Part shown: in pieces, positions 6,238-52,108 of the stretch
Numbering within the stretch: the stretch's first letter is position 1
How the letters are laid out: every line of letters starts with the position of its first letter
From: a virus
Strand: one strand, 5' to 3'
Length of the DNA: 64,000 nt
IMG/VR virus record: IMGVR_UViG_3300017917_002466
Span: 124,001 to 188,000 of that record
Program-made: the position numbers and the translations under genes
Notes under the pieces: model-generated
Databases searched by the model: none
Seen by the model: only the letters and a program-made list of their open reading frames with translations
Told to the model about the DNA's origin: nothing

Positions 6238-6252
6238 GTTTAACCGCGCCTC

Positions 6253-6761: not shown

Positions 6762-6805
6762 TTTGCTCCTTTCGCCCGCCTACAAGATGGTTCGGCAGGC
6801 ATTTT

Positions 6806-7061: not shown

Positions 7062-7086
7062 ATAACTCCAATGAAAAGTTTATTTC

Positions 7087-7190: not shown

Positions 7191-7291
7191 CTGTGACGAC
7201 CGGCTACCTTGATTTTCTGTGCGGCGACCTTACGCAACTTATTGGCAACGACTTCCGCAACAGGATCGGGGCCGATGACTTCGATATTCAT
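7118..7291 (-). CDS. Hypothetical small protein (array A cassette 2)
   Basis: 57 residues from the ATG at 7291 (AAGGA site upstream). Starts MNIEVIGPDPVAEVVANKLR; the rest is basic and low in structure and is largely encoded by attC-like site A2. Confidence 0.6.
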   Translation of the reverse strand: MNIEVIGPDPVAEVVANKLRKVAAQKIKVAGRHSTQQTNAGSDASTQMPADIKVEVI

Positions 7292-7341
7292 ATGATTCCT
7301 TTCGCCGCACCTATTTATAGAAAAGCCGGGCGGCATGGCAT

Positions 7342-7487
7342 CACAACGTTTCAGGCACTCGCCTGTTGTTTTTCTGCGACTCTATATTGACAAGACTCTG
7401 CCACGCAATACCCACGATTGACATTTAATGGGCACTTATGTTCCGATCCGAGACAGCAGAAAAATTGCAGGCTGCCTGTGTTGTATG
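7342..7487 (-). repeat. attC-like site A1
   Basis: CACAACGTTTCAGGCACTCG and GCAGGCTGCCTGTGTTGTA are the arms; inside, TTGTTTTTCTGC pairs with GCAGAAAAATTG. Confidence 0.85.
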
Positions 7488-7605
7488 AAGGTTTTGTTGA
7501 CTCCACCAGTGCTGCTTTTATGCGAAGCCACGCAAGATACTGGAGTCGCGACATACCGATATCACCCCAAGCCGAATCAACACTTTCTATATCTTCTTGT
7601 AGCAT
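7351..7605 (-). CDS. Cassette protein, related to 30252-30503 (array A cassette 1)
   Basis: 84 residues from the ATG at 7605, after a GGAGG site. The segment LAWLRIKAALVESTKPSYN resembles LAWGRIKMFCEEALKPSHN of the cassette at 30252-30503. The C-terminal part is Cys rich (CCLGSEHKCPLN). First cassette behind the attI-like site. Role unknown. Confidence 0.7.
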   Translation of the reverse strand: MLQEDIESVDSAWGDIGMSRLQYLAWLRIKAALVESTKPSYNTGSLQFFCCLGSEHKCPLNVNRGYCVAESCQYRVAEKQQASA

Positions 7606-7640
7606 AAAAGCCTCCAATACGGTTCAACAAAACTTTTGTA

Positions 7641-7680
7641 CAACTAGTTAAATGATGTCATTCCCTTGTCTAACTCTTTG
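7641..7680 (-). other. attI-like site, array A
   Basis: 40 bases identical to 33852-33891, the only other place where a cassette array begins. On the minus strand it ends CTAGTTGTAC, an attC-type GTT core directly joined to the first cassette. It contains GTTAGAC and GTTAAAT-like half-sites. No integrase gene is visible. Confidence 0.65.
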
Positions 7681-12163: not shown

Positions 12164-12260
12164 TATAAATACTGTTGTAGTAGGGAGACAGAGGAGTCGA
12201 CACCTTTTCTCAACCATACTTGAGATTATCCCTACTTAATCTACTTAACCTGTATGGAGG
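12164..12260 (+). promoter_or_regulatory. Late promoter plus pseudoknot leader, copy 1
   Basis: TATAAATA at 12164-12171. Outer stem AGTAGGGA (12179-12186) with TCCCTACT (12229-12236). Inner hairpin TCTCAA, loop CCATAC (12214-12219), TTGAGA. Downstream GTATGG (12252-12257) is the exact complement of the loop and overlaps the GGAGG ribosome site of the gene at 12265. Conserved GGGAGACAG after the 5' strand. Confidence 0.85.
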
Positions 12261-12264
12261 GAAT

Positions 12265-12957
12265 ATGCAAAAACTTTCTAAAGAAGATTTCATTTCCAAG
12301 GCTAATCAAATCCACCAAAATCGTTTTGATTATTCAAAAGTTGAATACTACGATAATAAAACTAAGGTTTGTATTATTTGCAAAGAACATAAAGAGTTCT
12401 ATCAACAACCAAGCAAACATCTTCTTGGTCAAGGTTGTCCAATATGTTCAGACCAAAAATTAACATTAGATAAGTTTATTTCAAAAGCAAATCAAACTCA
12501 TAACTTCTATTACGATTATTCTGAAGTTGTTTATGTTAACTGGAAAACTAAAATTTGTGTGGTATGTCCAGCACACGGAAAGTTCTGGCAAAGACCAGAT
12601 GTTCATTCGTCTGGTCAAGGATGTCCTATATGTAAATCTTCAAAAGGCGAAAAAGAAGTTGAAAAATGTTTAACCAACAAAGGAATTACATTCATTCCAC
12701 AAAAACGATTTGAAGATTGTCGTGGTAAAGTCAAACCTTTACCTTTTGACTTTTACTTACCAGAACATAATATTTGTATTGAATACCAAGGTAAACAACA
12801 CTACCTAAAAGAAAGTAAGTTCTATTCGGAAGAACTTTTACAGAATGATAAAACAAAAGCCCAGTATTGTTTCGATAACAACATTAGGCTTATCGTGATC
12901 CCATATTGGGAAGACGTTTATAAATGTCTACGATTTTTTGGTAGCGAAAGAGGTTGA
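12265..12957 (+). CDS. EDxHD (Vsr-like) homing endonuclease
   Basis: 230 residues. Residues 7-60 and 65-121 are two copies of a DNA-binding zinc repeat (DFISKANQIHQNRFDYSKV, then C-x2-C; DUF723 type). The C-terminal 100 residues carry the restriction-like core FDFYLPEHNICIEYQGKQHY, as in free-standing phage EDxHD homing endonucleases. Start at 12265, behind GGAGG. Lies opposite to all its neighbours and is expressed from the late promoter and pseudoknot leader. All key segments look intact. Confidence 0.88.
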   Translation: MQKLSKEDFISKANQIHQNRFDYSKVEYYDNKTKVCIICKEHKEFYQQPSKHLLGQGCPICSDQKLTLDKFISKANQTHNFYYDYSEVVYVNWKTKICVVCPAHGKFWQRPDVHSSGQGCPICKSSKGEKEVEKCLTNKGITFIPQKRFEDCRGKVKPLPFDFYLPEHNICIEYQGKQHYLKESKFYSEELLQNDKTKAQYCFDNNIRLIVIPYWEDVYKCLRFFGSERG

Positions 12958-24659: not shown

Positions 24660-25343
24660 ATGATTCTTTCTAAAACTGTTCAAGTTAAAATTAGCCGAAG
24701 AAATATTAAACATTATTTGTCTCTTGGTTATGTTATTCCAAAACATACTGATATTTATAATCGCCTTTGTAATCAAATAGGGATTCTAATTGAAGTATCT
24801 ATTGGACATTTACTCAAAGGAAGTAAAGTAAAAGTTCTTTGTAAATGTGACGAATGTGGAAAAGAAAATTTAACTTATTACAACGAATCTCTTAAATTCA
24901 AATATATTTGTAAAAATTGTGCTGCTAACCAACCTAAAAGATTAGAAAAGTTAAAAAATGCTATGACTGGTAAAAAACATTCCGAAGAAACTAAAAAGAA
25001 AATGAGTGAACATAATTGGGCAAAGAATCATACTGGAAAACTACATCCTTGTTACAATTCTAATCTTACTTTTGAAGACCGATATCTAGGTAGAAATAGA
25101 AATGTACAGCCAGAAAATTATCAATGGAAAAAGAAAGTTAAAGAAAGAGATAATCATATTTGCCAAAAATGTGGCTCAAAAGAAAATCTATGCGTTCATC
25201 ATCTTAACAACTATAAATCATTTGAAAACGAAAGGTATGACATTAAAAATGGAATTACCTTATGTGTTGGATGTCATAAGGAATTCCATAAAAGATATGG
25301 TCGTTTAACTACCAAAGAGCAAATAAAGGATTTTATAGGGTAA
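24660..25343 (+). CDS. HNH homing endonuclease with NUMOD-type region
   Basis: 227 residues. A zinc pair near 63-90 (CKCDECGKEN, then CKNC), a NUMOD3-like helix (TGKKHSEETKKKMSEHN) near 102-118, and a C-terminal HNH domain (CQKCGSKENLCVHHLNNY, then GITLCVGCHKEFHKRYGRL). Appears intact. Unrelated in its nuclease fold to the enzyme at 12265, yet it has the same leader. On the strand opposite to its neighbours. Confidence 0.88.
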   Translation: MILSKTVQVKISRRNIKHYLSLGYVIPKHTDIYNRLCNQIGILIEVSIGHLLKGSKVKVLCKCDECGKENLTYYNESLKFKYICKNCAANQPKRLEKLKNAMTGKKHSEETKKKMSEHNWAKNHTGKLHPCYNSNLTFEDRYLGRNRNVQPENYQWKKKVKERDNHICQKCGSKENLCVHHLNNYKSFENERYDIKNGITLCVGCHKEFHKRYGRLTTKEQIKDFIG

Positions 25344-25632: not shown

Positions 25633-26481
25633 CTAACGGGCATTTCGCACAACAGTGTCCTGCGCGGGGCTTCTTAGCGCATGGATGCGCTCTTCTGCTA
25701 TCCGGCAGTATTTCTCTTCCTTCTCAATTCCGATGTAATTCCGGCCAGTATTAATACAAGCGATTGCAGTAGTACCGGAACCAATGAACGGGTCTAAAAT
25801 TGTATCACCACAAAAAGAATAATAAGAAATCGCTTTTGTAGCCAACTCTAATGGGAACGGAGCTGGATGTCTATTACGCTCCGGGTTGATTTTCCATACA
25901 TTTGTTCTTTCGTAACCATCCAGCACTTTGGATTTTTTTATTATCTCTTGTGAATGAGAACGAATTGATTTGTCCAGTAAGCACCCCGGCTTTGAAAACA
26001 CCAGTATATATTCTGTAATATTAAATGTTTTGTACGCAACTGGTCTACGATGGTGCGAAAATTTGATTGCTCGACTTGATGCACCATCTGGCTTTACCCA
26101 TATAATGTCGTCTAAGAATGTCCATTTTTTTGAAAGCATAGAACAAACATCAAACGGTATTGGTATTCGTTTTGATTCTGTGCTTCTTTTTTTCCTCGCT
26201 TCAATAACGCATGACAAGTTCAGCACAAATATTCCCGCCGGTTTTATCTTTGTATGTGCCGTATTAAAAACTGTGTCTAAAAAAGATAGATACGAGGCAT
26301 ACGATTCGTATTTTGAATAACACCTTGCATTATAATACGGCGGTGATGTTAAAATCATATCCACGCTCTCGTCTGGTATAGTCTGCATGACTTCGAGGCA
26401 GTCCCCGCATGTTACGGTATTTGTCTTCGGCGCAGGACGCGCCGTGTCTTGCCCCGCGCCTATAATTTCAGAATTTGCCAT
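25633..26481 (-). CDS. Site-specific DNA methyltransferase, beta-class order (array B distal cassette)
   Basis: 282 residues from the ATG at 26481. Motif IV TSPPYY at about 44-49 comes first. The AdoMet-binding motif DPFIGSGTTAIA comes near residue 235, followed by NYIGIEKEEKYCRIAEERI. The order and the TSPPY motif fit an N4-cytosine or N6-adenine methyltransferase. The ribosome site AGG is part of the attC core GTTAGGTGC right before the ATG. No cognate restriction enzyme beside it. Probably modifies phage or host DNA against restriction. Confidence 0.85.
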   Translation of the reverse strand: MANSEIIGAGQDTARPAPKTNTVTCGDCLEVMQTIPDESVDMILTSPPYYNARCYSKYESYASYLSFLDTVFNTAHTKIKPAGIFVLNLSCVIEARKKRSTESKRIPIPFDVCSMLSKKWTFLDDIIWVKPDGASSRAIKFSHHRRPVAYKTFNITEYILVFSKPGCLLDKSIRSHSQEIIKKSKVLDGYERTNVWKINPERNRHPAPFPLELATKAISYYSFCGDTILDPFIGSGTTAIACINTGRNYIGIEKEEKYCRIAEERIHALRSPAQDTVVRNAR

Positions 26482-26485
26482 ATTG

Positions 26486-26618
26486 CACCTAACGGTTCGG
26501 CAAACGTAAGCCGTGCCTACGAATGCGTGCGACAAGGATATTTTACGTGAACGCACTGACGGTCGTAATTCTCCACACAGCACGTTGTTTGGCATGGCTT
26601 GCTTTGCCTGTTGTTTGT
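26486..26618 (-). repeat. attC-like site B25
   Basis: CACCTAACGGTTCGGCAAAC and GCTTTGCCTGTTGTTTG are the arms; TAAGCCGTGCC pairs with GGCATGGCTTG. Minus-strand core GTTAGGT fits the integron consensus GTTRRRY. Confidence 0.85.
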
Positions 26619-26732
26619 CTGTTGAGCGAGTACAGCGGATTTCAGAGTTTGCCAATGCAACCGCCCCTTAGTTTGCAAGTGCTCCGATAACTCATCAAAC
26701 CATTGAACCGCATCAGATATTTCGTTACTCAT
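26517..26732 (-). CDS. Hypothetical cassette protein (array B)
   Basis: 71 residues from the ATG at 26732 (GGAG site). MSNEISDAVQWFDELSEHLQ is helical; the C-terminal 35 residues, Cys and basic rich, are encoded inside attC-like site B25. Confidence 0.6.
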   Translation of the reverse strand: MSNEISDAVQWFDELSEHLQTKGRLHWQTLKSAVLAQQTNNRQSKPCQTTCCVENYDRQCVHVKYPCRTHS

Positions 26733-26769
26733 TGGCAAACTCCTATCAGTAAATTTAAGAGCGAAATTG

Positions 26770-26910
26770 CAAACAACGTATCACGCACCCGCCCGTTGTT
26801 TGTCCGTTATCCACTTACAGCACCGAGGGCACCAAGCATCTATACCGCTATATGGATACACTGGTGCCTTACCACATGTAGGACAAATTACGGGCTGCGT
26901 GTGTTGTGGG
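26770..26910 (-). repeat. attC-like site B24
   Basis: AACAACGTATCACGCACCCG pairs with CGGGCTGCGTGTGTTG; the zinc-ribbon end of the B24 gene lies in the loop. Confidence 0.8.
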
Positions 26911-27095
26911 ACCGTGGGCAATTCTACCGCAATCTCTGCGCGGCGATCTTTTACCCATTGCTCCATTTCGATTTGATCATTACTCAATACCACCAACGCA
27001 TCATTAGGGATTTTCCCACCATGACGAAAAGGTGCCGTGACCTTGTTGACTCGGCAAAGGAACATCTCAAGCCTGTGTATGTCTTCGACGCGCAT
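26781..27095 (-). CDS. Zinc-ribbon cassette protein (array B)
   Basis: 104 residues from the ATG at 27095 (AAGGA site). Helical first half, then CPTCGKAPVYPYSGIDAWCP and CCKW, a four-Cys zinc ribbon whose codons lie in the attC hairpin loop. Confidence 0.65.
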   Translation of the reverse strand: MRVEDIHRLEMFLCRVNKVTAPFRHGGKIPNDALVVLSNDQIEMEQWVKDRRAEIAVELPTVPQHTQPVICPTCGKAPVYPYSGIDAWCPRCCKWITDKQRAGA

Positions 27096-27122
27096 AATAA
27101 TTCCTTTTGAATTGCCCATGTA

Positions 27123-27264
27123 CCACAACGTTTAGCGCACGGGTGATAGTTTGCCCGTGGCTCGACAAAGCCCACACTTTACCATACCAGTACCAGGATC
27201 GTCGGATAAATACTCGCCACTACCCATACACGTAGGGCAAATTTTACCCTGCGCTTGTTGGTTG
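27123..27264 (-). repeat. attC-like site B23
   Basis: CCACAACGTTTAGCGCACGG and CCCTGCGCTTGTTGGTTG; GATAGTTTGCCC pairs with GGGCAAATTTT. Confidence 0.85.
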
Positions 27265-27371
27265 ATGCGGAGGGAAGCCACCTCAGCCTCCAGCGTGGCG
27301 ATAGCCCGTTCAAGAGACAAAAACCGATTCATAACAAATGATGGATCAGAGAAATCAATTTCGTTTACCAC
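27132..27371 (-). CDS. DnaJ-type zinc-finger cassette protein (array B)
   Basis: 79 residues, GTG start at 27371 behind GGAGG. Coiled N-terminal part (LERAIATLEAEVASLR), then CPTCMGSGEY...CGLCRATGK, the C-x-x-C-x-G-x-G pattern of DnaJ zinc fingers. The cassette at 27722-27958 has a similar pair. Confidence 0.7.
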   Translation of the reverse strand: MVNEIDFSDPSFVMNRFLSLERAIATLEAEVASLRINQQAQGKICPTCMGSGEYLSDDPGTGMVKCGLCRATGKLSPVR

Positions 27372-27407
27372 GCCACACCTCCATGTATAAAAAGCTGACC
27401 GAAGTTT

Positions 27408-27490
27408 CAACCAACGTCTGCCCTATGCTGACGTTTCTGTTTCAGAAATGTGGGAGTCATCGACCGAACAGCATTGGGCTGTTGTTTGCT
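27408..27490 (-). repeat. attC-like site B22
   Basis: CAACCAACGTCTGCCCTATG and CAGCATTGGGCTGTTGTTTG are the arms; TTTCTGTTTCAGAAA closes the loop. Confidence 0.75.
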
Positions 27491-27668
27491 GTGCGCTCGC
27501 TTCCACAAAACCTGCGGTTTGCGGAGTATCGAGAGGGCACCAATTTGGTATTTCAAAAGTAACATTGATAACAGACCTACCGCCATATAGAGGATGGTTG
27601 CAAATAAATCCACTCTGACTGTAGCACAAGGGACATTCGTTACAGCAACTAATTTTGATTACACGCAT
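27423..27668 (-). CDS. Cys-rich cassette protein (array B)
   Basis: 81 residues from the ATG at 27668: CCNECPLCYSQSGFICNHP gives five Cys and one His in 20 residues, a clear metal site. The tail is attC-encoded. Confidence 0.65.
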   Translation of the reverse strand: MRVIKISCCNECPLCYSQSGFICNHPLYGGRSVINVTFEIPNWCPLDTPQTAGFVEASAQQTTAQCCSVDDSHISETETSA

Positions 27669-27705
27669 GAGCAAACCGCCTATCTATTCTCAAAAGAGCG
27701 CATTG

Positions 27706-27846
27706 CAACCAACGGTATCGGCTACGCCTGAAGTTTGCCCGTACCGTGACAACGCCAACAGTCCTTACCATTGTTATAATTATTGGTAGAACCAGACCCA
27801 GCAGGGAAACAGTCAGGGCAAATTTTAGGCTGGCCGTGTTGGTGGA
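27706..27846 (-). repeat. attC-like site B21
   Basis: AACCAACGGTATCGGCTACG and GGCTGGCCGTGTTGGTGG; GAAGTTTGCCCG pairs with AGGGCAAATTTT. Confidence 0.8.
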
Positions 27847-27958
27847 TGTGACGCTTGCTTCCACCAATTTTGCGGCGGGTCTTAAACTGATCCTCGCCAT
27901 AGTGGCCGGTTATGTAATTATCAAGTTCCTGACTCATGCGCTTATCGTTGCCGAACAT
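27722..27958 (-). CDS. DnaJ-type zinc-finger cassette protein (array B)
   Basis: 78 residues, ATG at 27958 behind GGAGG. KICPDCFPAGSG and CWRCHGTGKL form a DnaJ-like zinc finger encoded within the attC hairpin. Related to 27132-27371. Confidence 0.65.
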   Translation of the reverse strand: MFGNDKRMSQELDNYITGHYGEDQFKTRRKIGGSKRHIHQHGQPKICPDCFPAGSGSTNNYNNGKDCWRCHGTGKLQA

Positions 27959-27999
27959 ATTTCCTCCCGCCGCTTACCAGTTAAAAGCAAGCGGCATTT

Positions 28000-28144
28000 A
28001 CACCAAGTTTGGCGCATTCGCACGAAGTTACGCCGTCTTATCGCACCAACAAGTAGAACACTGCTTGTGAGCAACATCAAACGGGCATATATCCAAGCCC
28101 CATTTACAAGAAGGCGTAATTTTGTGCTGCGCCTGTTGGTGGAT
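28000..28144 (-). repeat. attC-like site B20
   Basis: ACCAAGTTTGGCGCATTCGC and GCTGCGCCTGTTGGTGG; GAAGTTACGCC pairs with GGCGTAATTTT. The left core is degenerate (CCAAG for CCAAC). Confidence 0.75.
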
Positions 28145-28267
28145 GTGCCGCGTTTCTTCCGCAATGTCAGGCTGGCAATCTTCCAGCATGATAGGGCAAG
28201 AACCGGCGTGATCCACTATTTCATCTTGAGTGCCAAAGAAGCCGCAATATTTACATTTGCCAGCCAT
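28028..28267 (-). CDS. Zinc-finger cassette protein (array B)
   Basis: 79 residues from the ATG at 28267: MAGKCKYCGFFGTQDEIVDH, then AGSCP gives a C-x2-C...H...C finger near the start. A second Cys group (CKWGLDICP, CSTCWC) is attC-encoded. Confidence 0.65.
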   Translation of the reverse strand: MAGKCKYCGFFGTQDEIVDHAGSCPIMLEDCQPDIAEETRHIHQQAQHKITPSCKWGLDICPFDVAHKQCSTCWCDKTA

Positions 28268-28298
28268 ATAATAAACCTTTCTTGAAACGCGGCATTTA

Positions 28299-28443
28299 CA
28301 CCAACGTTTGCTCAACCGCACGATAGTTGTCGCAATCGATCTACCACTGCTGTAACATAAGACACATAAACCTTGTGCTCAACAAACTCTTTGTAAAGAC
28401 TATCGGCTATTGCGGCAATTTCGTGCTTGAGCTGTTGTACGTC
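28299..28443 (-). repeat. attC-like site B19
   Basis: CACCAACGTTTGCTCAACCG and TGCTTGAGCTGTTGTAC; CACGATAGTTGTCGCAA pairs with TTGCGGCAATTTCGTG. Confidence 0.8.
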
Positions 28444-28551
28444 TGTGGAAGGAGCGGCTTCCTCAGCTTTAAGTGCTCGCATCACGGCAGGGCAACGGTC
28501 TACGTTTATACCCATACCGCTACACGGCAAAATGAATGACTTGTTATCCAC
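28312..28551 (-). CDS. Hypothetical cassette protein (array B)
   Basis: 79 residues, GTG start at 28551 behind GGAGG. APSTDVQQLKHEIAAIADSL resembles APSTDVQQPQVDITA of the cassette at 29752-29973, because both read the same attC arm. Helical; function unknown. Confidence 0.6.
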   Translation of the reverse strand: MDNKSFILPCSGMGINVDRCPAVMRALKAEEAAPSTDVQQLKHEIAAIADSLYKEFVEHKVYVSYVTAVVDRLRQLSCG

Positions 28552-28590
28552 GCGAGCACCTCCTAAATCGTAAAGAGCGACTGGAATTGC

Positions 28591-28724
28591 GTACAACGGT
28601 TCAGCAACGTGCGCCGTGCCTACAGGGCTTCACGGCAATATGGACACCACACAAACCCAGTATGGGCCTTGCCAAGACGAAGCCACTCGTGAAATTGGCA
28701 TGGCGTACTTGCCGTGTTGTGCGA
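28591..28724 (-). repeat. attC-like site B18
   Basis: GTACAACGGTTCAGCAACGT and TACTTGCCGTGTTGTGC; GCGCCGTGCC pairs with GGCATGGCG. Nearly identical over 100 bases to site B15 at 29438-29571. Confidence 0.85.
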
Positions 28725-28832
28725 TGAATTTGTTGACTCCCTAATGTAAGCGCGAATTGCTTCTAACGCGGTAAAATCTTTTGAATATTTACACATTCTC
28801 TCTACTTGCAAAACGGCTTCGTGTATATCCAT
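28620..28832 (-). CDS. Cassette protein, 3' half duplicated at 29468 (array B)
   Basis: 70 residues from the ATG at 28832 (GGAGG site). Helical N-terminal half (HEAVLQVERMCKYSKDF). The C-terminal FHEWLRLGKAHTGFVWCPYC is shared with 29468-29701 and ends in a Cys pair. Start region like 31415-31651. Confidence 0.65.
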   Translation of the reverse strand: MDIHEAVLQVERMCKYSKDFTALEAIRAYIRESTNSSHNTASTPCQFHEWLRLGKAHTGFVWCPYCREAL

Positions 28833-28863
28833 TCGCGCCTCCAATATGGTTCAACAAACTTTT

Positions 28864-28953
28864 GCACAACGGTTCGGCAAACGGGCGAAGTTGGTTTACC
28901 TCGACACGGAGGGCTGTTCTACGCCAATTTCGCCCTTTGCCTGTTGTGCGATG
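28864..28953 (-). repeat. attC-like site B17
   Basis: GCACAACGGTTCGGCAAACG and CCCTTTGCCTGTTGTGC; GGGCGAAGTTGG pairs with CCAATTTCGCCC. Confidence 0.9.
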
Positions 28954-29063
28954 TTGTTTTTAATTACCTTAATTTCAGCGGCGATTTCTCGTAACCGAAG
29001 ATTATTAGCTACAACAAAGCACCACAACGATAAATAAGCCAGAAAGACAAAAAACCATTTCAT
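28896..29063 (-). CDS. Membrane-anchored cassette protein (array B)
   Basis: 55 residues: MKWFFVFLAYLSLWCFVVAN is a membrane anchor or signal, then LRLREIAAEIKVIKNNIAQQ is a helix. GGCGG site before the ATG at 29063. Tail attC-encoded. Confidence 0.6.
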   Translation of the reverse strand: MKWFFVFLAYLSLWCFVVANNLRLREIAAEIKVIKNNIAQQAKGEIGVEQPSVSR

Positions 29064-29100
29064 AATCGCCGCCTATAAATCAAAGATTAAAAACCATTTC

Positions 29101-29235
29101 GCCTAACGTCTACCGCATCGCACGAAGTTGCCGCGCCCAAACCCACAACCTACGATAAACCCCTGACGGTAGATTATTGTTATTGTCTACAAAGGCTTCC
29201 ATTTCTGCGGCAATTTTGTGCTGCGGTTGTTGCAC
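29101..29235 (-). repeat. attC-like site B16
   Basis: GCCTAACGTCTACCGCATCG and GTGCTGCGGTTGTTGCAC; CACGAAGTTGCCGCG pairs with TGCGGCAATTTTGTG. GCCTAAC is the canonical integron core RYYYAAC. Confidence 0.9.
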
Positions 29236-29406
29236 GGGGCGCTTCGCCCGAACCGTTCGGCCCGTTTCCAAATTATCCAGCGCGGTGCGGACTGCTATTG
29301 CCCCGCTGTGGCCGAGAGAATAATTGACAACGGCAACCGCTTTGCCGTTACGACATACCTCAAACGCATAGCCAGTATCTTCTATCTCATATTTGGCACC
29401 GCGCAT
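29110..29406 (-). CDS. Hypothetical cassette protein (array B)
   Basis: 98 residues. The first 50 (MRGAKYEIEDTGYAFEVCRN, SGAIAVRTALDNLE) form a small alpha/beta unit; the rest, basic then helical, is attC-encoded. Function unknown. Confidence 0.65.
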   Translation of the reverse strand: MRGAKYEIEDTGYAFEVCRNGKAVAVVNYSLGHSGAIAVRTALDNLETGRTVRAKRPVQQPQHKIAAEMEAFVDNNNNLPSGVYRRLWVWARQLRAMR

Positions 29407-29437
29407 ATTAACATCCTATCTTTAAGGGCCGAATGGC

Positions 29438-29571
29438 GTGCAACGTTCTCGGCAATGTACGCCGTGCCTACAGGGCTTCACGGCAATATGGACACCACAC
29501 AAACCCAGTATGGTCCTTGCCAAGACGAAGCCACTCGTGATATTGGCATGGCGTACTTGCCGTGTTAGGCG
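29438..29571 (-). repeat. attC-like site B15
   Basis: GTGCAACGTTCTCGGCAATG and TACTTGCCGTGTTAGGCG; GTACGCCGTGCC pairs with GGCATGGCGTAC. The plus-strand core GTTAGGC matches the integron consensus exactly. Confidence 0.9.
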
Positions 29572-29701
29572 ATGTAGAAAGCGACTCCTTAACGTCCTCA
29601 AATTTGACAAATTCACCGTCGTCGCACTCCTCCATCCGAGCATGCGTGCCATACATATCGCTCGTGACCTTATAATCGTACCGTGTCAAATTTACATCCA
29701 T
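29468..29701 (-). CDS. Cassette protein, 3' half duplicated at 28620 (array B)
   Basis: 77 residues from the ATG at 29701. The N-terminal half NLTRYDYKV...GEFVKFEDVKESLS resembles 32217-32474 (NLTRYNLEW...AWVKFDDIKELLN) and 31696-31962. The C-terminal half is nearly identical to 28620-28832, so this cassette is a hybrid. Confidence 0.65.
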   Translation of the reverse strand: MDVNLTRYDYKVTSDMYGTHARMEECDDGEFVKFEDVKESLSTSPNTASTPCQYHEWLRLGKDHTGFVWCPYCREAL

Positions 29702-29724
29702 ATATCGCTCTCGCTTTCTATTTC

Positions 29725-29863
29725 GCATAACGTCTGCCACACGGTTGATCGTTACGGCCTACCTTGCCAATCACCAGATTCACGTTCAGGAACATCATAT
29801 CGCCGTTTAGATAAATCTCCATAATATGAATAGGCCGTAATGTCAACCTGTGGCTGTTGTACG
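29725..29863 (-). repeat. attC-like site B14
   Basis: GCATAACGTCTGCCACACGG and CCTGTGGCTGTTGTACG; TTGATCGTTACGGCCTA pairs with TAGGCCGTAATGTCAA. Confidence 0.85.
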
Positions 29864-29973
29864 TCTGTGGAAGGAGCGGATTCTTTAGTTAATGCGGTGC
29901 AGCCATGACCGACACCCTGAACACCTTGCCACTCCCACCGAGCTTGTATATAGTGACGACAATCTTTGAACAT
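29752..29973 (-). CDS. Hypothetical cassette protein (array B)
   Basis: 73 residues from the ATG at 29973 (GGCGG site). FKDCRHYIQARWEWQGVQGV near the start; the second half is attC-encoded. Function unknown. Confidence 0.6.
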   Translation of the reverse strand: MFKDCRHYIQARWEWQGVQGVGHGCTALTKESAPSTDVQQPQVDITAYSYYGDLSKRRYDVPERESGDWQGRP

Positions 29974-30012
29974 TTGCACCGCCTTATAGATCGTTTAGAG
30001 CGACTGGAATAG

Positions 30013-30083
30013 CGTACAACGTGTGCCAAAGTATGAAGGTGTGAAACAATTTGCGAAGCGAACATACTTTGGCTGTTGTGTGT
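30013..30083 (-). repeat. attC-like site B13, compact
   Basis: GTACAACGTGTGCCAAAGTA and ATACTTTGGCTGTTGTGTG; an 11-bp perfect stem GCCAAAGTATG/CATACTTTGGC. No coding sequence inside. Closely similar to site B6 at 31989-32064. Confidence 0.9.
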
Positions 30084-30238
30084 TGGTTTTCGCTCCACAA
30101 TATTAAAAAGCAATTTGGCGATTGTAACGAGGCCAACTCAACCACCCTCGTATCCCATCGGGCGTCCCCTTTGGTGGTCTACATAGCCGTGGACGGCTTA
30201 GCCAAATTGCCTATAAATTCAAAGAGCGAAAACTTACA
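30081..30238. ncRNA. Non-coding structured cassette NB2
   Basis: A cassette-sized interval between two attC-like sites without a reading frame of use. Outer helix GTTTTCGCT (30086-30094) with AGCGAAAAC (30225-30233). Second helix GCAATTTGGC (30110-30119) with GCCAAATTGC (30201-30210). Inner hairpins ACCACC/GGTGGT and AGCCG-TGGA-CGGCT. The cassette at 32059-32205 has the same outer helix and layout but a different, again complementary, second helix. Strand of the RNA not known. Confidence 0.6.
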
Positions 30239-30389
30239 CACAACGTATACGCTATTGTGAAGTAACTATGTTATTTAGGCGCTCCTCTAACTGTGAAATA
30301 AGCGACAATGCCTGTGGATACGACTCCATTGCTGACGGAACTGAATCCCGTAGAAACTTGAGCGCCGCCACAATAGCGTTGTTGTGCGA
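30236..30389 (-). repeat. attC-like site B12
   Basis: ACACAACGTATACGCTATTG pairs with CAATAGCGTTGTTGTG; most of the B12 gene's second half lies in the loop. Confidence 0.85.
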
Positions 30390-30503
30390 AGGTTTTAACG
30401 CCTCCTCACAAAACATTTTTATGCGACCCCACGCCAGTTGTTCAGACGAAGACCCTTTTGCATTAACAAGTGCGCTAACAGATGATAGTTCATTTTCAAG
30501 CAT
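30252..30503 (-). CDS. Cassette protein, related to 7351-7605 (array B)
   Basis: 83 residues from the ATG at 30503 (GGAG site). LAWGRIKMFCEEALKPSHN matches the array A cassette at 7351-7605. All-helical; function unknown. Confidence 0.7.
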   Translation of the reverse strand: MLENELSSVSALVNAKGSSSEQLAWGRIKMFCEEALKPSHNNAIVAALKFLRDSVPSAMESYPQALSLISQLEERLNNIVTSQ

Positions 30504-30535
30504 AAAAACTCCTAAATAAAAAGCGTTAAAACTTT

Positions 30536-30734
30536 TGCACAACGGGATCAGGCATTGCCCGACAGTTTGCGCGGTGCTTCACAAGCGATACAAACGCTTC
30601 ACAAAGCGCGAAGTTGCCGCGCCCATTTACTTAACTGCTCTGCACTTGGTACGCCACCGATATTTGCTATGCGCACACCATCCTCAAGCTCAGTGGCAAT
30701 TTGGGCGATAGCCGCGCTTTGTGTGTTGGTTGAT
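30536..30734 (-). repeat. attC-like site B11, long
   Basis: The left side starts GCACAACGGGATCAGGCATT; the pairing arms are CACAAAGCGCGAAGTTGCC and GGCAATTTGGGCG...CCGCGCTTTGTGTG. Extra sequence on the left side makes it about 200 nt. Confidence 0.65.
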
Positions 30735-30895
30735 GTGGAAGGAATGCCCACCTTATTTTTCTTTCGGCGGGTAATCTTTCTCCACCACGAATGAACAACG
30801 GAACAGATAATAGCAACCAATCCTATTGCCAACGCTACGCCAAGGAACACCAGCCCAAACACATCATGAAACGTCCATACGAAAATAGAACCCAT
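30599..30895 (-). CDS. Membrane cassette protein (array B)
   Basis: 98 residues. Residues 10-36 form a membrane helix (FGLVFLGVALAIGLVAIICS), then a basic stretch (WWRKITRRKKNK) that would stay inside, and a soluble helical tail encoded in the attC hairpin. Confidence 0.7.
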   Translation of the reverse strand: MGSIFVWTFHDVFGLVFLGVALAIGLVAIICSVVHSWWRKITRRKKNKVGIPSTSTNTQSAAIAQIATELEDGVRIANIGGVPSAEQLSKWARQLRAL

Positions 30896-30945
30896 TTTTT
30901 TCTCCTTACCCGCCGAACTATTAATTCAAAAGCGGGATTTATTTT

Positions 30946-31024
30946 GCACAACGGTCAGCGCACAGCCGATGCGGTACGCTTACCATTTTTGCTACCCCGT
31001 TTCGGCTTGCGCTTGTTGTGTGCT
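30946..31024 (-). repeat. attC-like site B10
   Basis: GCACAACGGTCAGCGCACAG and GGCTTGCGCTTGTTGTGTG; near-identical left arm to A4. Confidence 0.85.
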
Positions 31025-31131
31025 GTTCGGCGCGACTCTAATCGCTCCCAGGCGGCCAGCTCCGCATCACCACGGGCCTCCGCCGCACCCATCACAGCAT
31101 CAAAATCATCAGGACCATAATCGTTTTTCAT
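30955..31131 (-). CDS. Basic-tailed cassette microprotein (array B)
   Basis: 58 residues from the ATG at 31131: acidic helical first half (MKNDYGPDDFDAVMGAAEAR), strongly basic second half (NKRKPKRGSKNGKRTASAVR) encoded by the attC arm and closely like the tail of 6456-6761. Confidence 0.6.
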   Translation of the reverse strand: MKNDYGPDDFDAVMGAAEARGDAELAAWERLESRRTAHNKRKPKRGSKNGKRTASAVR

Positions 31132-31170
31132 TTGGCCGCCTTTACAATAACGCTCTCACGCCGAATGGCA

Positions 31171-31230
31171 TCACAACGTTCACCGCACGCCGGATGCGGT
31201 ACTCCGTTTACGGCTGCGGGTGTTGTGCGA
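31171..31230 (-). repeat. attC-like site B9
   Basis: TCACAACGTTCACCGCACGC and GGCTGCGGGTGTTGTGCG; about 60 nt. Confidence 0.85.
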
Positions 31231-31374
31231 AGTGCGGCCCGCTTCCGCAAGTATTGGCGCGACTTCGCTACGGTGCGCCCACTGACCTTCCTTGTCAAAC
31301 ACAAACCTTGCAATTACTTTTCCACAGCAAATCTCAGTTTTCAATGAATACCACTGCAGTTTTTTTCGCGCCAT
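31180..31374 (-). CDS. Hypothetical cassette protein (array B)
   Basis: 64 residues from the ATG at 31374 (GGAGG site): MARKKLQWYSLKTEICCGKV, a small beta unit with a Cys pair. Basic attC-encoded tail. Confidence 0.6.
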   Translation of the reverse strand: MARKKLQWYSLKTEICCGKVIARFVFDKEGQWAHRSEVAPILAEAGRTSHNTRSRKRSTASGVR

Positions 31375-31400
31375 TATAACCTCCAAAAGGGCCGCATTTT

Positions 31401-31536
31401 GCACAACGTCTGCGCTACTGGTGCTGTGCGCATACTAAGCAGGCATGTTTTTTACACTTTCGACTAGTAATTACACCACAGTCGTAACCAGCTCCGATGT
31501 GCGCTTCGCATGGCACCATAGCGCTGTTGTGCGATG
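31401..31536 (-). repeat. attC-like site B8
   Basis: GCACAACGTCTGCGCTACTG and ATAGCGCTGTTGTGCG; the Cys-rich end of the B8 gene is in the loop. Confidence 0.85.
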
Positions 31537-31651
31537 AATTTGTTGACTCCGCCAGTGCTGCGCGAATGGTTTCCAATGCACATTTACAATCTGGACACTG
31601 GTGTTGATCCACGACTATTTGAAAATGAGCCAAGGCTTTCTTAATTTCCAT
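31415..31651 (-). CDS. Cys-rich cassette protein (array B)
   Basis: 78 residues from the ATG at 31651 (GGAGG site; same start region as 28620-28832). CPDCKCALETIRAALAES near the middle and CKKHACLVCAQH at the end suggest metal binding. Confidence 0.65.
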   Translation of the reverse strand: MEIKKALAHFQIVVDQHQCPDCKCALETIRAALAESTNSSHNSAMVPCEAHIGAGYDCGVITSRKCKKHACLVCAQHQ

Positions 31652-31682
31652 TCGCGCCTCCAATATGGTTCAGCAAATTTTT

Positions 31683-31848
31683 CGCACAACGTATGCTAAA
31701 CGGCTGATGCCTTGCGCTGGATAAAATAGTCGTGAACATCTGGATACCACACACATTTACGACATTTATATAAATCCTCGTAATCGCTACCATAGTACGT
31801 TTCACATTCCTTACAGCGCAAGGTTTCAGCCTTTAGCGGTTGGTTGCC
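31683..31848 (-). repeat. attC-like site B7
   Basis: CGCACAACGTATGCTAAACG and CTTTAGCGGTTGGTTG; GGCTGATGCCTTGCGCTG pairs with CAGCGCAAGGTTTCAGCC. Confidence 0.9.
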
Positions 31849-31962
31849 TGTTTGTGAAAGCTCCTTAGTGTCGGCAAATTTTAAATATACTCCGTCACCA
31901 CCTTGATGTATGTCGCAATCACAATCGCAACTATTAAACACAAATGTTCTGAAATTTGCCAT
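31696..31962 (-). CDS. Cys-rich cassette protein (array B)
   Basis: 88 residues. The N-terminal half (MANFRTFVF, VYLKFADTKELSQ) is related to 32217-32474. LRCKECETYYG...CRKCVWYPD adds a two-site Cys ribbon; its last part is like that of 5925-6170 in array A. Confidence 0.65.
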   Translation of the reverse strand: MANFRTFVFNSCDCDCDIHQGGDGVYLKFADTKELSQTGNQPLKAETLRCKECETYYGSDYEDLYKCRKCVWYPDVHDYFIQRKASAV

Positions 31963-31988
31963 ATAATATCGCTCCTTTCACAAATTGC

Positions 31989-32064
31989 AACCAACGGTTG
32001 CCAAAGTATGAAGTTTACGTTTCGTAAATTTGCGAAGCGAACATACTTTGGCTGTTGTGTGTTG
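31989..32064 (-). repeat. attC-like site B6, compact
   Basis: CCAACGGTTGCCAAAGTATG and CATACTTTGGCTGTTGTGTG, with GTTTACGTTTCGTAAAT in the loop. Similar to B13. Confidence 0.9.
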
Positions 32065-32205
32065 GTTTTCGCTTCACAATAATGTAAGGCGCGGGGCTGC
32101 ATAGGCTGAGTAGTGACCACCGCAGCATATATCTCCACCGAAAGTACGGTGAACCCTCAATTGTCACCGCGCCATATAAATTCCAAAGAGCGAAAACTTT
32201 CACAC
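32059..32205. ncRNA. Non-coding structured cassette NB1
   Basis: Same plan as 30081-30238. Outer helix GTTTTCGCT (32065-32073) with AGCGAAAAC (32189-32197). Second helix GGCGCGG (32088-32094) with CCGCGCC (32167-32173), covarying with GCAATTTGGC/GCCAAATTGC of NB2. Inner hairpin CACCG-AAAGTA-CGGTG (32136-32151). The only minus-strand ATG after the attC core is followed by a stop two codons later. Confidence 0.6.
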
Positions 32206-32344
32206 AACGGTTCGCACTACTGCTGTTCGTGCCAATCGGTTCGTTTGCCAGTAAACCTACTGCACGCATGGCACGTGGGGCTGACACAACCACCTATGTT
32301 ACGTTTGCAAGATTGGCATGACAGCATAGCGCTGTTGTGCGATG
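32201..32344 (-). repeat. attC-like site B5
   Basis: CACACAACGGTTCGCACTAC and AGCATAGCGCTGTTGTGCG are the arms. Confidence 0.8.
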
Positions 32345-32474
32345 AATTTAGAAGCTCCTTAATGTCGTCAAATTTAACCCAAGCCCCCTCATCGGATGCA
32401 ACCATTTGATGAAAATTATCCATAGTTTTAGTACGGTTAAACCACTCTAAATTATAACGGGTTAAATTTGCCAT
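32217..32474 (-). CDS. Cys-rich cassette protein (array B)
   Basis: 85 residues: MANLTRYNLEWFNRTKTMDN, then AWVKFDDIKELL (family core shared with 29468 and 31696), then attC-encoded CQSCKRNIGGC...CHAC. GGAG site before the ATG. Confidence 0.65.
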   Translation of the reverse strand: MANLTRYNLEWFNRTKTMDNFHQMVASDEGAWVKFDDIKELLNSSHNSAMLSCQSCKRNIGGCVSPTCHACSRFTGKRTDWHEQQ

Positions 32475-32500
32475 ATAATATCGCTCCTTTCACAAATTGC

Positions 32501-32628
32501 AACCAACGTTTACGCAACGGGTGAAGTCGCCACAACTTTTAGATTATGACAATACCCTTGCTTTAATGTACAATGATCCGATAAACACTTTAAACTACAC
32601 TCGATTTCACCCTTGCGTTGTTGGTTGT
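32501..32628 (-). repeat. attC-like site B4
   Basis: AACCAACGTTTACGCAACGG and CTTGCGTTGTTGGTTG; GGGTGAAG pairs with TTTCACCC. Confidence 0.85.
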
Positions 32629-32749
32629 CTGTAAAATTTTCTACCTTAGATGCAAGAGCGGCACACCATACGAGATGGGTATACTGCTCCTTATCTAACG
32701 TAGATTTACAACCAATACTATCAAACCATTCTCTACAAGTGCCGCTCAT
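32510..32749 (-). CDS. Hypothetical cassette protein (array B)
   Basis: 79 residues from the ATG at 32749 (GGAG site): MSGTCREWFDSIGCKSTLDK. Several Cys in the attC-encoded part (CSLKCLSDHCTLKQGYC). Confidence 0.6.
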   Translation of the reverse strand: MSGTCREWFDSIGCKSTLDKEQYTHLVWCAALASKVENFTDNQQRKGEIECSLKCLSDHCTLKQGYCHNLKVVATSPVA

Positions 32750-32775
32750 ATAAACTCCAAAGAAAATTTTATTGC

Positions 32776-32850
32776 AACCAACGTTTGACAAATGGTGAAG
32801 TCGTGTACTCACGATTTAGGCTTTTCGTTACCATTTGTTTGTTGTAAGAT
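32776..32850 (-). repeat. attC-like site B3
   Basis: AACCAACGTTTGACAAATGG and CCATTTGTTTGTTGTAAG are the arms; about 75 nt, outside the coding sequence. Confidence 0.85.
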
Positions 32851-32868
32851 GTTTATGCCACTTCCTTA

Positions 32869-33165
32869 TTATCCGTTGGCGCATCTTTGTTTTTTGATAT
32901 AGTCTAAAAGTGTAACCTGTTCTTTTTCTGGTAACTGTTCAATCACTTTTTTATTGAAAAAATATTCATCCGTAAAACCACCAACAAAATCTAACCATTT
33001 TCCTGAAATCTTTGGTAATGGTAACTCGGTGCCCCGATAAGATGCAGACATAAATATCTCTGCTGGTACGCCGTTTAATTTCCGGTAAAGTGTTCCCCCA
33101 CCACTTTTCTGATGTTCCTCTGGATACGGTGGGTTCCAAACGCCTGTGAATTTTAGTTTTTGCAT
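32869..33165 (-). CDS. Hypothetical cassette protein (array B)
   Basis: 98 residues: MQKLKFTGVWNPPYPEEHQK, then AEIFMSASYRGTELPLPKI, ending in a helical basic tail. Unusually, its stop lies before the attC-like site. Compact single-domain look; no family recognised. Confidence 0.65.
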   Translation of the reverse strand: MQKLKFTGVWNPPYPEEHQKSGGGTLYRKLNGVPAEIFMSASYRGTELPLPKISGKWLDFVGGFTDEYFFNKKVIEQLPEKEQVTLLDYIKKQRCANG

Positions 33166-33210
33166 TTTTTCTCCTGCGCCAACATCTGAATATCAGAGTG
33201 GCATAAATTT

Positions 33211-33353
33211 CTTACAACGTTCACCGCACAGCCGATGAATTGCGCTGCCAGTTACAAGAAAGATTTTTTACACATACATCACCAAACCCTGCTTGATAAC
33301 TACACATTCCACTATATGCACAAAGCAATTTTTCGGCTTGCGGTTGTTGTGGG
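33211..33353 (-). repeat. attC-like site B2
   Basis: CTTACAACGTTCACCGCACA and GGCTTGCGGTTGTTGTGG are the arms; GCCGATGAAT pairs with ATTTTTCGGC. Confidence 0.85.
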
Positions 33354-33445
33354 ATGTGGAGCGCAGGTTCCTTAGTGTCCTGCGCGGCACGCTTCGCCCA
33401 AAAATCAATCCATTCATCACGAGTAATAGCTGGTTTAGATGGCAT
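33221..33445 (-). CDS. Hypothetical cassette protein (array B)
   Basis: 74 residues: MPSKPAITRDEWIDFWAKRA is helical and AAQDTKEPAL follows. Cys-rich attC-encoded end (CAYSGMCSY...CVKNLSCNW). Confidence 0.6.
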   Translation of the reverse strand: MPSKPAITRDEWIDFWAKRAAQDTKEPALHIPQQPQAEKLLCAYSGMCSYQAGFGDVCVKNLSCNWQRNSSAVR

Positions 33446-33496
33446 AATGTGACTTTCTATGAGCCGCGCCTATCATATAGACCTGCGCGGAATTTA

Positions 33497-33564
33497 CCAC
33501 AACGTCTGCGCAACTGCGCGTAGTTGGGCCTTGACAATTACGACGCTTGCGCTGTTGGTGGATG
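33497..33564 (-). repeat. attC-like site B1
   Basis: CCACAACGTCTGCGCAACTG and GCTTGCGCTGTTGGTGG are the arms; GCGCGTAGTTGG pairs with CAATTACGACGC. Confidence 0.85.
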
Positions 33565-33795
33565 TGCCTGCCGACTCCGCTTGCTCTGCGGGCGAACCGG
33601 CGTCAACAACAGCGCGAGGAAATGATCGGCGGCGCGATTGCCTATAGTGTGCCGTTTGGCCGATGAATCACGGCTACCCTCCCAACGAGCACAGTCGTAA
33701 TACGCCATGGCGATGTTGGCCTGATAGGCACGGTACAGCCCCTTGTCGCGCCGTAACGCCCTTGTGAATACCTTGAACGCCTCTTGAAACTCCAC
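33538..33795 (-). CDS. Cassette protein, paralogue of 6456-6761 (array B cassette 1)
   Basis: 85 residues: FQEAFKVFTRALRRDKGLYR and NIAMAYYDCARWEGSRDSSA match 6456-6761. First cassette behind the attI-like site. The ATG at 33795 has GGAGG upstream. Function unknown. Confidence 0.7.
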   Translation of the reverse strand: MEFQEAFKVFTRALRRDKGLYRAYQANIAMAYYDCARWEGSRDSSAKRHTIGNRAADHFLALLLTPVRPQSKRSRQAHPPTAQAS

Positions 33796-33851
33796 AGGCG
33801 CCTCCTTATTGTTCGCCCGCCTACAATCGCGTTCTCGGCAGGCATTTACAC

Positions 33852-33891
33852 CAACTAGTTAAATGATGTCATTCCCTTGTCTAACTCTTTG
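33852..33891 (-). other. attI-like site, array B
   Basis: 40 bases identical to 7641-7680. Here they overlap the last 12 codons of the gene at 33859 (QRVRQGNDII stop), while at array A only this fragment of the gene remains. The minus strand ends CTAGTTGGTG at the join to the first cassette. Confidence 0.65.
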
Positions 33892-34095
33892 ATTTTCATA
33901 AAATTTTTTAAACTTATTGCTCAATTTATCTAATGGATAACCGTCTTGTATTAAAGCCCTTATTACAGCATACCGAATATATTTAGAACGAGTAATTTTT
34001 AGCTTTTCTCCTTGATGCAAACAACCAGTTGCTAAAACTGGTTCTAAATATATCTTATAGTCACTTCTTATCTTATCAGACCATTTTGCTTTCAT
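33859..34095 (-). CDS. Hypothetical protein hosting the attI-like site
   Basis: 78 residues, basic: KITRSKYIRYAVIRALIQDG resembles a ribbon-helix-helix pattern (short strand, two helices), so it may bind DNA. The 3' end is the attI-like site. Promoter 34102-34130 would also drive the array. Not a tyrosine recombinase. Confidence 0.65.
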   Translation of the reverse strand: MKAKWSDKIRSDYKIYLEPVLATGCLHQGEKLKITRSKYIRYAVIRALIQDGYPLDKLSNKFKKFYENQRVRQGNDII

Positions 34096-50301: not shown

Positions 50302-51126
50302 TTACTCCTTGTCTACATCAACCCATTTCTGAATATAGTTTCTGTCTTGTGTGAAGATAGGAATTTCAGTATCAATAACATATTCTGTTCTTATTGTAGG
50401 ATTTCCAAGTATCTGTAGTCTATCTTCTTTTGATTTAGGAAATCCATCTTTATCATCCAAGTTATATGTGAGTCCATCTTTAATACAAACACTTCTTTTA
50501 TAGACGCAAGTTCCCCTTTTCTTGTGAGTTTCTGTATCATTCCAGTTGATACCTTTCTGTGAGAAAAGCATTTCCTGAATTGCTTCACAAGACTTATGGT
50601 CAAGTTCCTTGTGAGAGAAGTGGGCTCTTCCAACCATCTGAATAGAGTTGCGAGTACAGTCCTGCTGTCTCCAAATTATCACATTAACAACATCATCTTT
50701 CGGAACGTTAAATGCTCTGGCATCAAACAAAGCTGGCTTTTTATCATATCTTTCAGGAAATTTAGCCATAAACTCGTGATTAAAGAAAGCAGTTGCCATT
50801 GAAGCCGCAACAGACTCAACTTTACTTTTACGATAGTCAAACCAAGCACAGGTTTCAATTCTTGTATAATCAGTTAAAAGTAGCGTAATTTCATCGCTTT
50901 GAGTATAACCGAACGAACAACCTTCAATATTCTTTACAAGAGCTTGAGTTGTTCTTTGCATACATTCAATAAGATTATCGTCAAAAGGTCTATTCATTCC
51001 TCTTGTTAAAGTATGAAAAGCGCACCCATCCAAACGAATAATAACTGGTACGCGTCTAGTCAAATATATTTCGGTTGCCTTTTCATATTCTTTACATCTA
51101 TCGCCTAATGATCTTTTGTCTGACAT
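50302..51126 (-). CDS. thg1: tRNA(His) guanylyltransferase-like protein
   Basis: 274 residues from the ATG at 51126 (AAGGAG site). IRLDGCAFHTLTRGMNRPFD (first metal Asp), YTQSDEITLLLTDY (second catalytic S-D-E) and WFDYRKSKVESVAASMATAF are the hallmark blocks of Thg1. The enzyme adds G to the 5' end of tRNA(His), or repairs 5'-truncated tRNA by 3'-5' polymerisation. Probably part of a tRNA-repair set with the neighbouring genes. Confidence 0.92.
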   Translation of the reverse strand: MSDKRSLGDRCKEYEKATEIYLTRRVPVIIRLDGCAFHTLTRGMNRPFDDNLIECMQRTTQALVKNIEGCSFGYTQSDEITLLLTDYTRIETCAWFDYRKSKVESVAASMATAFFNHEFMAKFPERYDKKPALFDARAFNVPKDDVVNVIIWRQQDCTRNSIQMVGRAHFSHKELDHKSCEAIQEMLFSQKGINWNDTETHKKRGTCVYKRSVCIKDGLTYNLDDKDGFPKSKEDRLQILGNPTIRTEYVIDTEIPIFTQDRNYIQKWVDVDKE

Positions 51127-51140
51127 AGATACTCCTTGGT

Positions 51141-51170
51141 AATATAATATGGTCGCGGCTAGTTTGTCAA
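51141..51170 (-). promoter_or_regulatory. Sigma70-like promoter
   Basis: TTGACA / 18 bp / TATATT on the minus strand; the -35 sits in the palindrome GGCTAGTTTGTCAACTAGCC. Confidence 0.65.
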
Positions 51171-51181
51171 CTAGCCACAAC

Positions 51182-52108
51182 CTATTTGGTGAGAAGAGCT
51201 TCCAGTTTGTCAAGACGCTCCCAAACATCTTTAACAGAAATGTACTCTGTAGTCTGTTTTTTCATTCCACTCTCACTACCATACCATTGTTCAATAGCAT
51301 TAGCGAGAAGAACTTTAAGTTCTCCTGTTCTTGGTTGTGGGGAAATTGTGGTTTGATTAAGAGATTTCTTTTCAAGAATATCCAATCTTTCAAGAGCATA
51401 CTTCTCAAACCTTTCCCAAGTTCCCCAAGTACCTTCTCTCATACTTTTGGCTTCTTCTTTATTATTCATCAAATCAATAGTTCCGTTATCCAAAACCTGA
51501 TTGATTTGGTCAATGAGCCTCAATATTTGAGAAGCTTGTTTAACATCCATTCCAAACTGTTCAAGCATAAATTGTCTCTTAGGGTTTTCGGTTTTACCTC
51601 TTTTAATATCATTTCTCATACGATGAAGCTGTGCAAAAGCATAACCCTTAAAAGCCATTACTGTTCTAAGAGATAAAAACTTCTCAGCATTATCTCTTAG
51701 CATCCAAGCAATATCTGTACCAAAGGTAACCAAGTGTCTTCTAACAAAAAGACATTCAATAAGATTTGGTGAACCTTTAATTCCAGTAAGATAAAAAAAT
51801 CTAACTAAACTATTCCACTCTCCTTCAACATCAGTCTTACCATCAGGAGTAAGAATTCTACTTTTTTCTCCTTTGACTTCTTTACTTTCAAAATTGGGAA
51901 CATTATCAAAACCAATTACATATCCGTACTTTTGAGGAAAAAGATGGACTTCTTGTGGCATAACTAATGCGACAATATCAATATCTGATTGCGGAGTATT
52001 AAGTCCATAAGCTTGGCTTCCGACAATACACTCATAAAGTAAATTTTCTCTAATCCAAAGTTCTTGTTTTTGAAATTTTTCTTGAACAAATAAATCCGTG
52101 TAAATCAT
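51182..52108 (-). CDS. RlaP-like nucleotidyltransferase
   Basis: 308 residues. CIVGSQAYGLNTPQSDIDIV (G-S-x-A-x-G...S-D-x-D, residues 29-48) is the pol-beta-type catalytic start of the COG3541/RlaP family (RNA-ligase-associated). PNLIECLFV and the helical C-terminal part also fit. Likely acts on RNA ends. Confidence 0.85.
   Translation of the reverse strand: MIYTDLFVQEKFQKQELWIRENLLYECIVGSQAYGLNTPQSDIDIVALVMPQEVHLFPQKYGYVIGFDNVPNFESKEVKGEKSRILTPDGKTDVEGEWNSLVRFFYLTGIKGSPNLIECLFVRRHLVTFGTDIAWMLRDNAEKFLSLRTVMAFKGYAFAQLHRMRNDIKRGKTENPKRQFMLEQFGMDVKQASQILRLIDQINQVLDNGTIDLMNNKEEAKSMREGTWGTWERFEKYALERLDILEKKSLNQTTISPQPRTGELKVLLANAIEQWYGSESGMKKQTTEYISVKDVWERLDKLEALLTK

Follow-up and report, generated by a model that had tools for sequence, protein, structure and literature searches.

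The ends of integron cassettes pair with each other over 9–11 contiguous nucleotides according to the available excerpts of PMC2727003, which also describe an extra-helical base in ordinary attC sites that sets which strand recombines. For phages, the available part of PMC9892861 mentions a prophage in which an integron and a CALIN each carry an attI. Within the open-licence literature without preprints, including the available portions of PMC9892861, PMC8876359, and PMC2727003, no description was found of end-helices of the kind reported below. We analysed a window of 64,000 nucleotides (positions 124,001–188,000 of the IMG/VR record IMGVR_UViG_3300017917_002466, 253,664 bases), which belongs to a large phage. 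The window contains an integron-like cassette array (array B, 25633–33891, − strand), in which short units lie in a row around two non-coding cassettes and the genes, on the − strand, run from an attI-like end at 33853–33891 toward 25633, and a shorter array of the same kind (array A, 5624–7680, − strand). Open reading frames are present in most cassettes of the arrays.

Both arrays start at an attI-like sequence of 39 bp (33853–33891 at the gene-5' end of array B and 7642–7680 at the start of array A, both on the − strand), with the two copies being identical (2 exact matches, 0 expected). Even with up to 3 mismatches allowed, the 24-bp core of this sequence has no further site in the record, and a search of IMG/VR with the phage's own record excluded gave 0 matches to the core. 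The same array plan is found in three viral records, none of which is stated to be complete: this phage (G000), G001 (locus L003), and G002 (locus L006). The candidate attI at the array start is AACTAGTTG in G002 and, in this phage, the 39-bp sequence shared by both arrays. In array B, the 39-bp sequence makes up the 3' end of a short reading frame of 78 amino acids (window 33853–34094, − strand) that has no Pfam match, and array A retains only the 3' end of this frame. The final cassette of array B (25633–26655, − strand) encodes a DNA methylase (PF01555, E 9e-43), and the 3' end of the cassette looks truncated. In addition, a viral record of 192 kb carries an apparent relic, the degraded remains of a similar array (L005:3700–5560).

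The earlier note had singled out two gene-less cassettes of array B, 30081–30238 and 32059–32205, with shared flanks and a second helix whose sequence is fully changed and still paired (GCAATTTGGC/GCCAAATTGC in the first, GGCGCGG/CCGCGCC in the second), and the sequence bears out both points. The body of the first cassette spans 30075–30244 on the − strand, from R' (30237–30244) to R'' (30075–30082). Its outer helix pairs AGCGAAAAC at 30225–30233 with GTTTTCGCT at 30086–30094, its inner helix pairs the arm at 30201–30210 with that at 30110–30119, and its compact attC, with a GCCAAAGTATG L box, lies at 30021–30074 (all −). The body of the second cassette spans 32054–32208 (−), from R' (32201–32208) to R'' (32054–32061), with the same outer arms at 32189–32197 and 32065–32073, the inner arms CCGCGCC at 32167–32173 and GGCGCGG at 32088–32094, and a compact attC with a GCCAAAGTATG stem at 31996–32053 (all −). 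The attC-like sites are present, and follow the cassettes, as had been said, on the − (gene) strand; on the + strand they precede them. The pairing also involves two R boxes, GTTGTGTG/CACACAAC, absent from the earlier note. The whole bodies fold far better than shuffled sequences (z = −6.58 for the first and −4.61 for the second, with 0/200 shuffles as good). The proposed internal hairpins did not hold up: inside the inner helix, the z values on the gene strand are −0.44 (first) and −0.10 (second).

An exact pattern search revealed a third copy in another viral record (L003:9039–9272), with the same frame of helices and the inner helix GCAATGGCGG/CCGTCATTGC; its interior, inside the inner helix on the gene strand, has a z value of +0.53. 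Comparison of the three copies revealed that they share about 34 bases at the start, about 36 at the end, and the following attC, with nothing alignable between their interiors. Although part of the variable interior, the inner helix is paired in 3/3 copies, and no reading frame is common to the three; an unpaired second helix or a conserved frame in further copies had been named as the findings that would speak against the original proposal. The three copies are alike through the body and the following attC and diverge at the end of the unit, which is at G|TT. The first cassette has no match to the DNA of named phages. These two stretches are ordinary members of the array, namely cassettes without a convincing gene.

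Complementary cassette ends are the general plan of the array, coding cassettes included, a point missed by the earlier note. Scans for inverted repeats showed that nested double helices bracket most cassettes, including the coding ones, with a layout consisting of the R box, an unpaired spacer of 2–3 nt, an outer helix of about 10 bp, a loop of about 13 × 13 nt, and an inner helix of about 10 bp. The coding cassette at 30381–30543 (−) follows this plan (outer helix GTTTTAACGC/GCGTTAAAAC, inner helix TTTTTATGC/GCATAAAAA), with its start codon within the inner helix, as does that at 31526–31690 (−), which is homologous to 28716–28870 and to 7480–7644 (−) of array A. In the latter the inner helix is altered on both sides, so that homologous coding cassettes change both inner arms together (GCTTTTATGC/GCATAAAAGC in 7480–7644 versus GCGCGAATGG/CCATTCGCGC). 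The arm sequence is free and the pairing is kept.

To avoid circularity, each R'' was located solely by the L-box pairing of its attC before the ends were scored, which yielded 53 cassettes (23 from array B, 6 from array A, 5 from L003, and 19 from L006). Left out, for want of an R'' reliably found from the L box, were 32507, 30952, 6453, L003:8085, L003:9039, and L006:8285, 11387, 14133, 16038, and 16407, together with array ends that have no site after them; of the left-out cassettes, three were added by hand to a survey of reading frames (n = 56) and four to a comparison of attC sharing. The ends of the 53 cassettes are complementary to their own partners and not to the ends of other cassettes: a score of at least 7 was reached by 37/53 own pairs versus 43/2756 cross pairs for the outer helix, and by 45/53 versus 147/2756 for the inner helix, while 0/10,000 permutations reached the own mean of either helix. 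In 16/53 cassettes the outer helix scores below 7. By position, pairing is high in the R box, nearly absent at positions 9–10 (0.15, 0.00), and present again at positions 11–21 (0.49–0.74 for own versus mostly about 0.25 for cross pairs). In cassettes with both helices, the loop between them measures 12–14 nt on the 5' side in 26/34 and on the 3' side in 28/34, with the consensus motifs TTGAAWTTATAG and AWTTAAGGAG.

If the helices acted in RNA, their arms would close each transcribed cassette and hide the start codon or protect the transcript, and the gene-less cassettes would be small RNAs of the same fold. Such a role would suit the many coding cassettes whose start codon lies within or abuts the inner arm, and the whole bodies, folded as RNA, are highly stable. 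Selection on an RNA should leave more G.U than A.C pairs, yet inside the helices we counted 791 Watson-Crick, 3 G.T, and 7 A.C pairs (mismatch counts being lowered in general, since the helix segments were picked by Watson-Crick score), with G.T/G.U nearly absent and G.T not in excess over A.C. The same helices also occur in gene-less cassettes, the start codon of other coding cassettes lies beyond the inner arm (offsets +51 to +73), and the interiors of the non-coding cassettes are shuffle-like in folding and not alignable. The missing G.U excess, together with these plain interiors and the gene-less members, argues against RNA and favours a DNA structure. Moreover, the helices characterise the array as a whole and occur in its coding cassettes too. 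An RNA may still be made from the non-coding cassettes, but it is not needed to explain the covariation. Searches for a structured RNA family gave 0 gathering-level Rfam matches in the window and in L003, with only weak, implausible matches at a permissive threshold, and ARAGORN found no tRNA. An RNA role is unlikely on these grounds, and the matching ends most likely allow DNA rather than RNA to form a recombination hairpin of unusual length; where the earlier note had left structured RNA and structured DNA carried as a cassette side by side, the DNA half is supported and the RNA half is not. Two cassettes without a clear gene at L003:8819–8981 and L003:9862–10017 contain stretches resembling a tRNA T-arm inside a GGCGGC/GCCGC helix, that in the former being GATGGTTCGACTCCATC; neither ARAGORN nor Rfam detected a tRNA in them.

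Ordinary integrons were compared through 80 bacterial and 80 viral control loci, fetched via their integron integrases, and through a pattern-listed set of cassettes from the integron of Shewanella phage M16-3. Early automatic finders were too insensitive even on the positive arrays and were replaced with an exact-R-box finder that was applied alike to all loci. At a score of 7, the outer helix was present in 0/31 bacterial and 0/66 viral candidates versus 18/29 cassettes of the phage arrays, and the inner helix in 1/31, 1/66, and 22/29, respectively, where the 31 and 66 are candidates that may include false cassettes (stricter GTTRRRY sets comprise 3 and 15). In ordinary cassettes, own pairing is down to background by about position 12, which agrees with the 9–11 nt given in the available excerpts of PMC2727003. 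Mutation bias alone could also be considered, in which template switching in hairpins (quasipalindrome correction) recopies one arm from the other and the helices are functionless; near-perfect Watson-Crick pairing, free arm sequence, and no strand preference are the trace expected of it. The same process should make the spacer and the loop of about 13 × 13 nt vanish, yet positions 9–10 stay unpaired (0.15, 0.00), both the size and the consensus of the loop are preserved, and no such helix is seen in ordinary integron cassettes. Mutation bias is accordingly a very unlikely explanation on its own.

Analysis of the attC sites showed that 53/53 align as L''/L' stems with a score of at least 6, R'' having been chosen by the L box. 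The spacers are regular, with 1–2 nt between R'' and L'' in 50/53 and 4–5 nt between L' and R' in 48/53. The core GTTRRRY is mostly not matched, the fifth base being T or C in 38/53, and GTT is retained in nearly all. An extra-helical base, usually 5–6 bp inside the L box, lies on the L' arm in 44/53 sites (33 only there); 0 sites have it on the L'' arm alone and 9 have none. Among ordinary sites aligned with the same settings, it lies on the L'' arm alone in 7/10 of M16-3, 49/61 viral, and 22/30 bacterial sites. The polarity of these attC sites relative to the genes is the mirror of that of ordinary attC sites. The R boxes that mostly depart from GTTRRRY and the mirrored polarity suggest that an ordinary IntI may not act on these sites. 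A search of bacterial genomes with a conserved attC loop gave 0 matches.

In the homologous attC pair 31015 (array B)/6516 (array A), the body that is shared lies on the other side of the attC, at odds with a simple unit made of a body and the attC after it. Evidence from attC sharing for recombination at both R boxes was mixed, and we make no such claim. A more elaborate scheme would be a hairpin-coded shuffling of phage modules, in which bodies, attC hairpins, and inner modules are separate, exchangeable folded-DNA units that use the R boxes and the conserved internal loop as points of recombination, have a polarity mirrored relative to ordinary integrons, and assemble small proteins with attC-encoded C-terminal parts; we consider it distinctly unlikely. 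Two attC sites of L006 (9813–9893 and 10641–10719) carry the internal-loop halves GACATTAAGGA and TTGAATTTTATTATAGG back to back in a helix-closed apical loop, and look as if the outer helix, the R box, and the attC part were missing. Separately, the survey of reading frames in arrays A and B, L003, and L006 found a start codon with a Shine-Dalgarno-like sequence and a frame extending at least 30 nt beyond R'' into the attC in 43/56 cassettes, some of these frames surely being spurious, and similar attC-encoded C-termini follow unrelated N-termini. Protein selection on these C-termini was considered and set aside, as the conserved ends may merely translate L boxes.

To model the excised form, circle junctions were folded with DNA parameters after joining the ends at G/TT, and one continuous rod was predicted, running from the inner helix through the loop, the outer helix, and the R box to the L box of the attC. 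In these folds a cassette's own flanks add −19.9 kcal/mol versus −9.9 kcal/mol with swapped partners, own flanks being better in 52/53 cassettes; for the ordinary integron of M16-3 the values are −8.4 and −6.7 kcal/mol (n = 9). In folds of the linear array, for the 40 of 53 cassettes with a usable neighbour, R'' is predicted to pair with its own R' in 34/40 and with its attC partner in 1/40, the corresponding values for M16-3 being 3/6 and 1/6. Taken together, the two sets of folds suggest that the site would be weak as long as the cassette sits in the array and strong once it is a circle, a lock-and-switch step that depends on predicted structures and is to be read beside the M16-3 control, which also pairs R'' with its own R' in 3/6.

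Our main reading, to which we give a probability of roughly two in three, is that the two non-coding stretches are cassettes lacking a convincing gene, in an integron-like array whose integrase is undetected, and that the covarying helices are cassette-end inverted repeats forming part of a folded-DNA recombination site. The repeats would constitute an extended attC: in the array, the cassette body would occupy its R boxes, and in the excised circle these would join into one long rod. An integron-type tyrosine recombinase, from the host or from outside the records, would recognise the folded strand, and the extra helices may promote extrusion or binding of the site in the circle while making it weaker in the array; capture would thereby be favoured over loss. 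Tyrosine recombinases (PF00589) were detected in 0/4 records, which may be fragments, so that the host or sequence outside these records would have to supply the enzyme; serine recombinases (PF00239) were likewise found in 0/4 records.

The TnpB/Cas12f1-like zinc-ribbon matches number 2 in G001 and 5 in G002 (one of the five being short and below the cut-off), and G002 has one Y1 transposase. With TnpB-like proteins above the family cut-off in 2/4 records and a Y1 transposase in one, the units might be thought hairpin-mobilised elements of the IS200/IS605 or REP kind, moved by such a transposase and unrelated to integrons; yet neither family occurs in G000, the record with two arrays, and attC sites with R and L boxes and unit ends at G|TT are integron features, which makes such an origin extremely improbable. 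Homing or HNH endonuclease genes lie near the arrays (window 12220–12957 and 24660–25343), and the regions 50302–52108 and 56323–62127 of the window encode Thg1-like and RlaP-like RNA-repair proteins, a nicotinate phosphoribosyltransferase, and an NAD synthetase.

The cassette-specific nested end-helices, with their fixed unpaired layout, offer a natural test of how a recombination site is specified by the folding of DNA and not by its sequence. From the layout, one would expect a weak site in the array and a strong one in the circle, and cassette traffic would thereby gain a direction. The mirrored position of the extra-helical base leads to a testable prediction of which strand is used. Such arrays occur here in large phages in which no integrase was detected, and where the recombinase comes from is now a direct question.

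The phage arrays are a variant of the integron cassette with added end-helices, of which the outer one is lacking in ordinary cassettes. They resemble integron cassettes in the tandem arrangement, the single gene direction, the R''-L''-L'-R' hairpins of the attC sites, the unit ends at G|TT, and an R' complementary to its own R''; unlike them, they add a second and a third end-helix past the R box. The core is GTTRRRY in integrons and mostly GTTGTNN in the phage arrays, and the extra-helical base, on the L'' arm of integron attC sites, is on the L' arm here. In the integron of Shewanella phage M16-3, R' likewise pairs with its own R'' in 10/12 cassettes (6 of 7 positions or better), whereas outer helices are present in 0/12 and inner helices in 1/12 at a score of 7. 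With at least two attC sites and no integrase gene, the phage arrays fall under the definition of CALINs, which the available part of PMC9892861 describes as attC clusters in phage genomes without an integron integrase. Paired cassette ends are not described in that part, and this phage differs further in having two arrays that share an attI-like sequence of 39 bp.
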